A stretch of DNA of 64,000 bases from positions 3,287,251-3,351,250 of the forward strand of contig NZ_CP005188.1 of the NCBI RefSeq assembly GCF_001563285.1, read 5' to 3'. The notes below the pieces were generated by a model that saw nothing but the letters and a program-made list of their open reading frames with translations, had not been told where the DNA came from and did not search any database. The DNA is from Sphingobium sp. MI1205 (GTDB lineage: Bacteria > Pseudomonadota > Alphaproteobacteria > Sphingomonadales > Sphingomonadaceae). The position numbers and the translations under genes were made by a program. How positions within the stretch are numbered: position 1 is the stretch's first letter; every line of letters begins with the position of its first letter. Shown here piece after piece: positions 3,178 through 58,536 of the stretch.

Positions 3178-5142
3178 ATGCCTGACGACGACTTCACACC
3201 GAAGCTGGGCAGGAAGCGCGGCAAGGACGGTAAGCGTGTCGTCAAATATGGCGGCCGCATCCTCGTCGCGGCGCGGCTCGCTGGCAGCAAGACCGGGGTC
3301 CGCTCGCGGCGCTTCGACGGCAGCCGGATCGGGCGCGGCGCGAGCATGGGTCGCCTGCTGTCGAGCCGCGACCGGCTCGCCGGGTTTCGCGGGCGCCGCG
3401 CGGTGGTCAAGGCGAGCCTCATCCGGCTCCAGGGCAAGGCCGGTCAGGTCGCCCGCGCACACATGCGCTATATCCAGCGTGACGGGGTCACGCGCGAGGG
3501 TCTGCAGGGCGAGCTGTACGGTCCTGAAACCGACCGGGCGGACGGCGATGATTTCCTCAAGTGGACCGCCGGCGACCGGCACCAGTTCCGCTTCATCGTT
3601 TCGGCCGAGGACGGCGCCGAATATCCGGATCTCAAACCCTATGTCCGTCGCTTCATGTCGCAGGTCGAACAGGACCTCGGCACCAGGCTCGACTGGGTCG
3701 CCGTCGACCACTTCAACACCGAGCGACCGCACACCCATATCGTCCTGCGCGGCGTCGACGACCGGGGCGACAATCTCATCATCGCGCGCGAGTATATTGC
3801 GCACGGGCTTCGCGAGCGCGCGTCCGAGCTGGTGACACTGGATCTCGGGCCGCGCACCGACCACGAGATTGAGGCGCGCCTGCGCCACGATGTCGACCAG
3901 GAACGGCTGACCGCGATCGATCGTCGCCTGCTACGCCGGATGGACGGCGCGCGCGAGGTTTCGCCGGCGGACAACGATCCCTTCCAGCAATCGATCGCGG
4001 CCGGCCGGCTGCGCAAGCTCAAGGCGATGGACCTGGCCGAAGATATCGGCGGCGGCCGATATCGGCTCGCCGACGGACTGGAGGATACGCTCCGTCGAAT
4101 GGGCGAGCGCGGCGACATCATCCGCCTCATGCAACGCGAGCTGACCGCTCGCCGGCTCGACCGCGCCGGGATCGAGCAGGTCGTCACCACCGCGTTGCGT
4201 GAACCCATTGTCGGCCGGCTGATCCAGCGGGGCTTCTCCGACGAACATCGCGATCGGCATTATGTCATGGTCGACGGCGTCGACGGCCGCGTCCACTATG
4301 TCGATATCGGAAGGGGCAGCGCGACCGCCTCGGTGCCCGAGAATGCGACCATCCGGATCGAGCCGACCAAAGCGGAATCAAGCCAGGCGGATCGCACGAT
4401 CGATGCGATCGCCCGCGCCAACGGCGGGCGCTACTCGGTCGACCTGCATTTGCGCCATGACAGCCACGCGAGCGAGGCGTTCGCGACCAGCCATGTGCGA
4501 CGGCTCGAAGCGATGCGGCGCGCGGGCGCCGGACCGGAGCGCATGGCTGACGGGAGCTGGTCCATCCCGCACGACCATCTCGCCCGGGCGGAGAATTTCG
4601 CCAAGCAGCAGCAGCGCGACCGGCCGGTGGCGCTGTCGATCCTGTCGCCACGGCCCGTCGGCGACCTGGTCGCGATCGAGGCGCCGACCTGGCTCGACCG
4701 CGAGCTGGCGTCGGGCACGTCCGGCGCGATACGCGATGTCGGTTTCGGGCGCGAAGTGCGGACTGCCCTGGCAGCCCGGCGCCAGTGGCTCATCGAGCAG
4801 CAATTGGCCGACGGCGAGCGGCAGGATTTCCGGCTGCGTGCTGGCGCGCTCGAGAACCTCCGGCAGCGCGAGCTTGAGGGTATTGGAGACCGGCTTTCCG
4901 GACAGCTCGACAAGCGGTTCGAGCCGGCCCTGGTCGGCGAACGCATCGAGGGTGTCATTGCCCGGCGCGTCGACATCGAGAGCGGCAGCTATGCCCTGGT
5001 CGAACGGTCGCGGGATTTCACGTTGGTCCCATGGCGCGACGTGCTCGATCGCAACATCGGCAAGACGGCGTCGGGTATCATGCGTTCCGACGGTATCAAC
5101 TGGCAGTTCGGGCGGGGTCGTTCAGGCCCGATGGTCAGTTGA
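3178..5142 (+). CDS. Relaxase/mobilization nuclease, VirD2/TraI-like (DUF3363)
   Basis: This 654-residue protein nicks oriT and pilots the transferred strand. The start at 3178 gives MPDDDFTPKLGRKRG, the usual N-terminus of this family. A candidate nicking tyrosine lies in AHMRYIQRDGV (about Y98), and the metal-binding histidine motif is DHFNTERPHTHIVLRG (about residues 177-192). The long C-terminal part fits DUF3363. It follows the oriT-like repeats and appears complete, whereas the coupling protein and trb genes that normally follow are absent; the sequence changes to Wadjet remnants within 200 bases. Confidence 0.88.
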   Translation: MPDDDFTPKLGRKRGKDGKRVVKYGGRILVAARLAGSKTGVRSRRFDGSRIGRGASMGRLLSSRDRLAGFRGRRAVVKASLIRLQGKAGQVARAHMRYIQRDGVTREGLQGELYGPETDRADGDDFLKWTAGDRHQFRFIVSAEDGAEYPDLKPYVRRFMSQVEQDLGTRLDWVAVDHFNTERPHTHIVLRGVDDRGDNLIIAREYIAHGLRERASELVTLDLGPRTDHEIEARLRHDVDQERLTAIDRRLLRRMDGAREVSPADNDPFQQSIAAGRLRKLKAMDLAEDIGGGRYRLADGLEDTLRRMGERGDIIRLMQRELTARRLDRAGIEQVVTTALREPIVGRLIQRGFSDEHRDRHYVMVDGVDGRVHYVDIGRGSATASVPENATIRIEPTKAESSQADRTIDAIARANGGRYSVDLHLRHDSHASEAFATSHVRRLEAMRRAGAGPERMADGSWSIPHDHLARAENFAKQQQRDRPVALSILSPRPVGDLVAIEAPTWLDRELASGTSGAIRDVGFGREVRTALAARRQWLIEQQLADGERQDFRLRAGALENLRQRELEGIGDRLSGQLDKRFEPALVGERIEGVIARRVDIESGSYALVERSRDFTLVPWRDVLDRNIGKTASGIMRSDGINWQFGRGRSGPMVS

Positions 5143-51814: not shown

Positions 51815-51957
51815 GCATTTTTCTCCGCGTTGTTAAGGGGTCAAAAATAGGGGCGATGCATTGAACCCATGGTGAACTGATGCGTTCCTGAACCCGCGAA
51901 CTGATGACGCTCGCCCTGCCGCTCGATTGCCTGTCCGCTGTACGGTGCCGCGCGGCC

Positions 51958-52030
51958 AAAAAAAAGGCCGGTCCGAAGACCAGCCTGGAAGTTTTAGGAG
52001 AGGATGCCTGAAAGGCAGTTCCTTATTGAA
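51958..52030 (-). ncRNA. Small-RNA-like element, copy 1 (between ftsK and lolA)
   Basis: Reading the minus strand: a short hairpin (TGCCT-TTC-AGGCA), an unpaired pyrimidine stretch (TCCTCTCCTAAAACTT) and an 8-bp stem with a UUCG loop (51985-51966) followed by eight U. The core 51989-52016 (28 nt) is identical to 58352-58379. The terminator stems differ in sequence but have the same size and loop, which indicates selection on structure. The pyrimidine stretch could pair with ribosome-binding sites (AGGAG). The 5' end is uncertain. Confidence 0.6.
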
Positions 52031-52093
52031 CGGCATGGATTTTTTGAGCAAATGCGTAATGCACGAAGGCGGTTGCATTTGACGCAATCGTGA

Positions 52094-58224: not shown

Positions 58225-58320
58225 TGAAGAACCTCTCTGAACTAATCCAGGCATCGCCTAGCAGCGATATGGTTAATTTCCAGTTCAGCACTCCAAAAAG
58301 GCGCGCGCGTCGCGAGGGAC

Positions 58321-58392
58321 AAAAAAAAGCCGCCCCGAAGGACGGCTTTGAAAGTTTTAGGAGAGGATGCCTGAAAGGCCCATTCCTTCTGC
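58321..58392 (-). ncRNA. Small-RNA-like element, copy 2 (between the mutase gene and the FadL gene)
   Basis: The minus strand reads GGCCTTTCAGGC, TCCTCTCCTAAAACTTTC, then AGCCGUCC-UUCG-GGGCGGCU and eight U (58348-58321). The 28-nt core 58352-58379 equals that of copy 1, and AAGGAA just upstream is also shared. The gene upstream (mutase) ends at 58537, 145 bases away, so either an own promoter lies in that gap or the RNA is processed from the mutase 3' UTR. Confidence 0.6.
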
Positions 58393-58536
58393 CTTTCGAC
58401 CCGGCATACCGCAACTGCGAAAGACGGAGGCTTGATTGCGTTTCATGCAATCGACGCCGAAACGCCATGGTTCCGTAAGGTAAAGCGGTTGAAGTGCCTC
58501 GCGAATTTTTCCGGCCGATCACTATAACAGGGCCGT

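Follow-up and report, generated by a model that had tools for sequence, protein, structure and literature searches.

Small RNA genes in the window

The window, a stretch of 64,000 nucleotides from Sphingobium sp. MI1205, contains two loci which, judged by their sequence, encode small regulatory RNAs of a type already described, alpha-r8 (SuhB/MmgR). Their flanking genes were named ftsK, lolA, fadL-type and pgm by Pfam and NCBIfam, and their features are listed in Table 1. On the minus strand, the Rfam model RF00519 (suhB/mmgR, alpha-r8) matched copy 1 at positions 51951-52023 with 53.1 bits and copy 2 at positions 58314-58386 with 44.3 bits. The first-pass annotation, made from the sequence alone, had suggested such a covariance search, and both loci scored above the gathering cutoff of 41 bits. 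Matches to SorY (24.3 bits, cutoff 111) and to BjrC1505 (22.9 bits, cutoff 50) were discarded.

The same annotation had reported an identity of 28 nt between positions 51989-52016 and 58352-58379. This identity is exact, the flanking base differs on both sides, and it is isolated, as it contains all nine 20-mers that the window repeats on the same strand. The terminators had been described as an 8-bp stem with a UUCG loop and eight U on the minus strand. The loop and the eight T were found again, but not the stem length, since the terminator scan gave 9 pairs for copy 1 (51986-51965) and 10 pairs for copy 2 (58349-58326). Each stem contains one G-U pair, at different positions in the two copies. 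The folds are more stable than dinucleotide shuffles, with z-scores of -3.90 (copy 1) and -3.44 (copy 2) and none of 200 shuffles as low.

Table 1. Positions of the two small RNA genes in the window and of the Tn3-family element that carries a further copy.
Feature	Position	Strand	Basis
alpha-r8 (SuhB/MmgR-type) small RNA gene, copy 1	51958..52018	-	RF00519 match; start predicted near 52016-52020 (promoter spacing), end at T run
Copy 1 5′ hairpin GCCUUUCAGGC	52006..52016	-	fold; invariant in 48/48 aligned RNAs
Copy 1 pairing core AUCCUCUCCU	51996..52005	-	sequence; invariant in alignment
Copy 1 intrinsic terminator (stem, UUCG loop, eight T)	51958..51986	-	scan; covarying stem
Copy 1 promoter box A TTGCGTCAAATGCAA, -79 from core	52073..52087	-	sequence; family pattern
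Copy 1 promoter box B TACGCATTTGCT, one base off exact form, overlaps predicted -35	52046..52058	-	sequence; family pattern
alpha-r8 small RNA gene, copy 2	58321..58381	-	RF00519 match; start predicted near 58379-58381
Copy 2 5′ hairpin GCCUUUCAGGC	58369..58379	-	fold, alignment
Copy 2 pairing core AUCCUCUCCU	58359..58368	-	sequence
Copy 2 intrinsic terminator	58321..58349	-	scan; covarying stem
Copy 2 promoter box A TTGCATGAAACGCAA	58436..58450	-	sequence
Copy 2 promoter box B TTCGCAGTTGCG	58409..58421	-	sequence
Tn3-family element	L246 633-5971; L239-L243, L245 (RNA at 4001-4066); L363-L366		

RNA Structure and Covariation

The architecture of RF00519, consisting of a 5′ hairpin, a single-stranded core and an intrinsic terminator, was found in the folds and terminator scans. 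The predicted length of 59-61 nt matches the 61 nt reported for SuhB (PMC6563040). Covariation was analyzed in 48 distinct RNAs from four chromosomal groups, in which 99.4% of the paired cells overall and 99.2% of those in the terminator helix hold a pair, and five of the eight helix pairs show changes on both sides. The score for the whole structure was 0.363 vs. a shuffled mean of 0.182 and was reached by none of 500 shuffles; the cells with a two-sided change (52 vs. 17.6) also exceeded all 500. Two of the five measures did not beat the shuffles, namely the number of two-sided pairs (5 vs. 4.1, 49/500) and the number of pair types (12 vs. 12.4, 460/500). When the partner was slid by one to three columns, 16-50% of the cells were still paired. 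The pairing of the 5′ hairpin is not proven by covariation, because the hairpin never varies. Rfam, conservation and covariation thus support the proposal that the copies form a small RNA family, each with a terminator of its own.

Copies in the Genome and Conservation of the Loci

The complete genome (G000; 4,619,375 bases on six contigs) was searched with RF00519. Six matches above the cutoff were obtained, four of them on contig C1, one on C2 and one on C3, followed below the cutoff by a seventh with 38.2 bits and the next with 24.9 bits. At the same loose E-value 13 of 14 control genomes gave matches, but only Caulobacter gave any above the cutoff. The family of two copies assumed in the first-pass annotation therefore has to be enlarged to six copies that have the core and are spread over three contigs, and a match of canonical type has to be added as the seventh. 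The six share GCCTTTCAGGCATCCTCTCCTAA, and the seventh (L007; G000:C1:2170354-2170432, L007 1501-1579) has TCTCCTCCCT, a canonical-type core UCUCCUCCCU, the only one among the seven, and a long terminator. As the six cores read AUCCUCUCCU and not the canonical sequence, the copies of the window's family were filed as a variant of RF00519. In this family, the changed core AUCCUCUCC stands in place of UUUCCUCCC, together with two promoter boxes at a fixed distance.

A 15-mer search allowing one mismatch returned the same six copies and one site on C5 (G000:C5:61009), which has no Rfam match and was taken as a chance occurrence. The exact 14-mer GGCATCCTCTCCTA occurs in all 61 genus genomes searched, one to nine times each, with two hits in total for the reversed control; these copy counts are slightly too high, because the core-like site on C5 is counted in the total of the own genome. 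Across the order, RF00519 matched at E ≤ 1e-4 in 263 of 296 genomes and above the cutoff in 237, in a search whose filters lose weak matches. The 11 genus members in this set have three to nine matches each.

The neighborhoods of 60 sites were compared in 12 other genomes of the genus, with G340 represented by two of its four sites. The order ftsK-RNA-lolA is kept in nine of the 12 genomes, as judged by the flanking proteins, the order pgm-RNA-fadL in 11 (one by the left gene only) and the order LysR-RNA-AAA ATPase in all 12, where the ATPase was named by eye and the LysR gene by Pfam/NCBIfam. The context of the copy at C1:1564690 is kept in ten genomes. Seven of the remaining sites have parts of the flanks from C2 or C3, and 11 have none of the flanks of the own genome. 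Since the neighbors are conserved across the genus, the window copies occupy old positions, which agrees with the earlier view that no recent duplication took place. The envelope context that had been read from the position between ftsK and lolA is uninformative because unrelated genes adjoin the other copies, and an envelope role was dropped.

Conserved Promoter Boxes

Upstream positions were numbered from the first G of GGCATCC. Copies came from named genomes, and the scan was stopped at 120 stretches, so that the counts are not a census. When orthologues were aligned, most sibling groups had their upstream blocks in common. Box A (TTGC-N7-GCAA) is exact in 72 of 119 upstream regions, with 68 sites at -78 to -80 and 0.28 expected from base shuffles; box B (TTCGCA-N-TTG) is exact in 88 of 119, at -50 or -49, with 0.04 expected. 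As the upstream regions are related, these counts are not independent events. Relaxed forms were found in place in 105 (box A) and 111 (box B) of 118 regions. The promoter is predicted to consist of a -35 element TTGC.. at -43, a spacer of 17 nt and a -10 element near -20, with transcription starting near -8 to -12. A simple sigma-70 scan detected a promoter at neither window locus. Relative to the predicted start, boxes A and B are centered near -64 and -36. Promoters activated by LysR-type regulators carry a dyad near -65 and a second site near -35. The layout of the two boxes thus resembles a LysR-type activator site.

A third element, box C (YGCRNYGCR), was found at -27 (window of -32 to -22) in 55 of 118 family copies, with 0.35 expected. 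It corresponds to the core of the published PhaR consensus of S. meliloti (PMC12542648). Among the six copies of the own genome, box A is exact in five, a relaxed box B is present in five, and box C is exact in three, with neither window copy among them. The exceptions are L002, which has no box B, and L004, whose box A carries a mismatch. The own genome has three instances of box A combined with an exact box B, all of them at RNA genes. In L002 (contig C2), AGGAGAGG, a complement of the core, lies just upstream of the predicted -10 region.

The boxes were further examined at 70 loci from the 296 genomes, chosen among the higher-scoring matches rather than by random sampling. The variant core is present at 31 loci, all in the window's family, and the canonical core at 39, all in other families. 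Box B is located at -48 to -51 in 30 of the 31 variant copies vs. none of the 39 canonical ones, and box A (N6 or N7) at -78 to -81 in 22 of the 31 vs. none of the 39; a box form off position was seen at two canonical loci, L323 and L329. Neither box was found in the upstream stretch examined of L007, the canonical-type match of the own genome. Core and boxes change together between families, and as the change is one phylogenetic split, it represents a single event. At the one locus examined from genus g13 (L342), box B is kept without box A, so box B may partly be a -35 element. The promoter signature shared by nearly all six copies points to a putative common switch.

A Divergent LysR-Type Gene

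A gene for a LysR-type protein (PF00126, PF03466) lies divergent to the sibling at G000:C1:3142728. Its nearest NCBIfam model is GcvA, with 195.7 bits, below the cutoff of 288 for this model. The gene was found at 44 of 164 loci scanned, two of the 44 being the same locus, and in all 44 it is divergent to the RNA, at a distance of no more than about 300 bp and with 53-90% identity. The genera with this arrangement include Sphingobium, Sphingomonas, Blastomonas, and Zymomonas. In 16 genomes with coordinates compared, RNA and LysR gene are 100-235 bp apart.

At E ≤ 1e-40 the LysR gene is present in 181 of the 296 genomes, all in the window's family. Of 188 listed genomes of this family with the RNA, 180 also have the gene, and eight, namely G287 and seven members of g13, lack it. 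None of the 20 listed genomes of the family that lack the RNA has the gene; 12 of the 20 belong to genus g13 and the rest to five genera, and 13 further genomes without the RNA fall outside these 20. G262 has the gene without a listed RNA, and its hit is the weakest (7e-50). By position and co-occurrence, the gene divergent to C1:3142728 is the best candidate for the activator acting on boxes A and B. In the titles and abstracts of one open-access library, no report was found that links a LysR regulator to SuhB/MmgR RNAs or to the change in their core and promoter; an earlier description is possible.

Putative Targets

SuhB acts on the 5′-UTR of thnR (PMC6563040), and relatives have been linked to carbon storage and uptake in other bacteria (PMC6563040, PMC12559287). 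The likely action of the RNAs described here is an Hfq-assisted masking of ribosome sites, by analogy, and masking of AGGAG-type sites fits the published relatives, i.e., SuhB on the thnR 5′-UTR (PMC6563040) and the targets of SisA (PMC12559287). Genes for Hfq and PhaR are present in the own genome, and the Hfq gene (G000:C1:1577174-1577599, L321) has a single open frame of 168 amino acids that contains two Hfq domains.

The sequence AGGAGAGGA occurs at 36 sites in the own genome, six of which are the RNA genes. Among the 24 sites outside RNA genes that were examined (30 loci in all), seven are followed, after 12-18 nt, by an ATG that begins an open frame of at least 60 amino acids. The proteins encoded behind such ATGs include a TonB-dependent receptor (Plug), an M28 peptidase, a cupin, a flavin monooxygenase-like protein, and a universal stress protein. 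As AGGAG is an ordinary ribosome site, and as AGGAGAGGA reads the same backwards, so that its reversal is no control, target enrichment is not claimed and was dropped; the seven sites are a lead to putative targets. The 11-mer AGGAGAGGATG occurs at five sites outside RNA genes, two overlapping a start codon, two in open frames and one core-like (C5:61010). L176 (C5) and L178 (C6) have an identical gene start, in which AGGAGAGGATG overlaps the start codon.

In the phaR mRNA (L320), GGGAGAGGAUUUC, a 9-nt complement of the core, is located 4-13 nt before the AUG. The pairing, noticed after the fact, was calculated at -23.7 kcal/mol vs. a mean of -11.9, with none of 500 shuffles as low. One YGCRNYGCR site lies 57 nt before the phaR AUG. 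This palindrome together with the core complement at the ribosome site would allow a possible loop of mutual repression.

A Transposon-Borne Copy

A match to copy 1 at E ≤ 0.01 was obtained in 62 plasmid records, of which 40 were listed. In 15 records, a Tn3-family element on sphingomonad plasmids has the identical segment as its right end, in 14 of them over the full 282 bp. The resolvase gene was found at ≥99% in 16 records, the additional one being NC_020543.1, which has the resolvase without this right end. The element has 5,339 bp including the terminal GG, and its ends match at 35 of 40 positions (34 in a second record). It encodes, in this order, a transposase, a resolvase, a protein of 453 amino acids without a Pfam or NCBIfam match, and the RNA.

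Six copies of the element, all of one length, were examined at both ends. Four are bordered by direct repeats (AGCAT, AATGT, GTCCT, and the 7-bp GGTATAG), two have none, and the right flanks all differ; the assumption of 5-bp duplications at all copies was therefore dropped, as only three of the six have 5 bp. The transposon copy has the variant core, and its 5′ hairpin extends in the fold to ten pairs, taking in part of the core. Neither box A nor box B was found in the stretch examined at this copy. The titles and abstracts of one open-access library yielded no report of a Tn3-borne small RNA in sphingomonads.

On three plasmids, an alpha-r8 RNA is situated near a gene annotated as an HU-type DNA-binding protein (L248 4752-5027, L250 2605-2880, L252 1785-2060).

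Proposed Regulation

Based on sequence and on analogy with described relatives, we consider it probable that both loci encode trans-acting alpha-r8 RNAs of about 60 nt, two of six siblings, for which repression through the core and control by LysR and PhaR are proposed. Together with Hfq, the core would pair with ribosome sites like AGGAGAGGAU and block translation. By the example of published relatives, the blocked mRNAs would be those for uptake and carbon use, at times when carbon is plentiful. Boxes A and B would be the two sites of a LysR-type activator, as suggested by position and co-occurrence. At the siblings with box C (three of the six, neither window copy), the PHB sensor PhaR may act as a repressor at a site that overlaps the -10 region.

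The activator is the part of this proposal for which another explanation deserves most weight. The boxes might be read by a different protein, for example by PhaR or by some global regulator, and the divergent LysR gene would then merely be a neighbor. In some genera the gene is indeed unlinked to the RNA (G257, G234, G204, G174, and G080) and the boxes are still present; genus g13 keeps box B (L342) but not the gene, its best hits to the LysR protein having 25-33% identity, and the site upstream of phaR fits the PhaR consensus and equally TTGC-N6-GCAA, a form close to box A. Nevertheless, the co-occurrence of RNA and LysR gene is strong, the gene is divergent, and the spacing of the boxes fits the rule for LysR-type sites, whereas the spacing of box A differs from the PhaR core YGCRNYGCR. 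We therefore regard a reader other than the LysR-type protein as rather unlikely.

It is far less probable that the RNAs with the variant core sequester one another or the canonical-type copy, as decoys or sponges, and do not repress mRNAs directly. Sponge pairing with alpha-r8 RNAs has been published for CrfA of Caulobacter (PMC12559287), and the transposon copy folds into ten pairs that include a complement of the core. However, the six sibling cores are identical pyrimidine runs, which cannot pair with each other, and a purine-rich partner RNA was not identified here. Both window copies lie downstream of ftsK and pgm on the same strand, but the idea that the copies are 3′ ends of these mRNAs, ending at their terminators, or a dispersed DNA repeat can hardly be maintained in view of the divergent gene upstream of the sibling at C1:3142728, the conserved promoter-like boxes preceding the RNA, the Rfam matches, the covariation, and the hairpin and T run that end all six copies.

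Returning to directly repressing RNAs under a LysR-type activator, a broader reading can be offered tentatively, and we would not rely on it. The change of the core and a dedicated LysR activator may have arisen as one package at the base of the Sphingomonadaceae, after which the siblings would have spread under one switch; the RNA perhaps silences phaR, and a loop would be closed if PhaR in turn represses some siblings. The Tn3-family element would have acquired a copy lacking the operator and be spreading it among plasmids of sphingomonads, where this copy might be an unregulated RNA or a decoy for the siblings of the host. The RNA family itself is known. Judging from the sequences, two things appear to be new, namely the shared promoter signature, for which a candidate regulator can be named, and the copy carried by the transposon. 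If these assignments are true, SuhB-type RNAs obtain a candidate transcription factor in a pollutant-degrading group in which SuhB silences a catabolic pathway, pairing core and promoter control differ together between families, and a transposon carries a regulatory RNA gene between plasmids.

Comparison with Known Systems

Among the closest described systems is SuhB of Sphingopyxis granuli TFA, which shares the Rfam family name, the order and a length of about 61 nt with the RNAs described here (PMC6563040). It represses the translation of thnR with Hfq, and its expression is tied to growth rate and PHB granules (PMC6563040). By its description it is set apart as one RNA, unlike the six siblings found here (PMC6563040).

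Siblings at separate loci are also known for the alpha-r8 RNAs SisA-D of Caulobacter crescentus, which likewise have a 5′ hairpin, a single-stranded pyrimidine core and a terminator, are bound by Hfq and repress uptake genes when carbon is plentiful (PMC12559287). In contrast to the RNAs presented here with their boxes, they have the canonical core UUUCCUCCCU, and their description gives no motif common to the four promoters (PMC12559287). One alpha-r8 copy adjoins a gene for N-formylglutamate amidohydrolase in most species, according to the same source (PMC12559287). A further family member is MmgR of Sinorhizobium meliloti, which is Hfq-dependent and repressed by PhaR/AniA via a YGCRNYGCR-type site; it differs in being a single copy with the canonical family core and in its activation by NtrC (PMC12542648, PMC7143759, PMC8844928).

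Dispersed sibling RNAs under one control are represented by the Qrr RNAs of Vibrio, although both the RNAs and their regulators are unrelated to those described here (PMC12559287). Finally, AbcR1 and the LysR regulator LsrB provide an example of a trans-acting alphaproteobacterial RNA that has been tied to a LysR-type protein, in a different RNA family.
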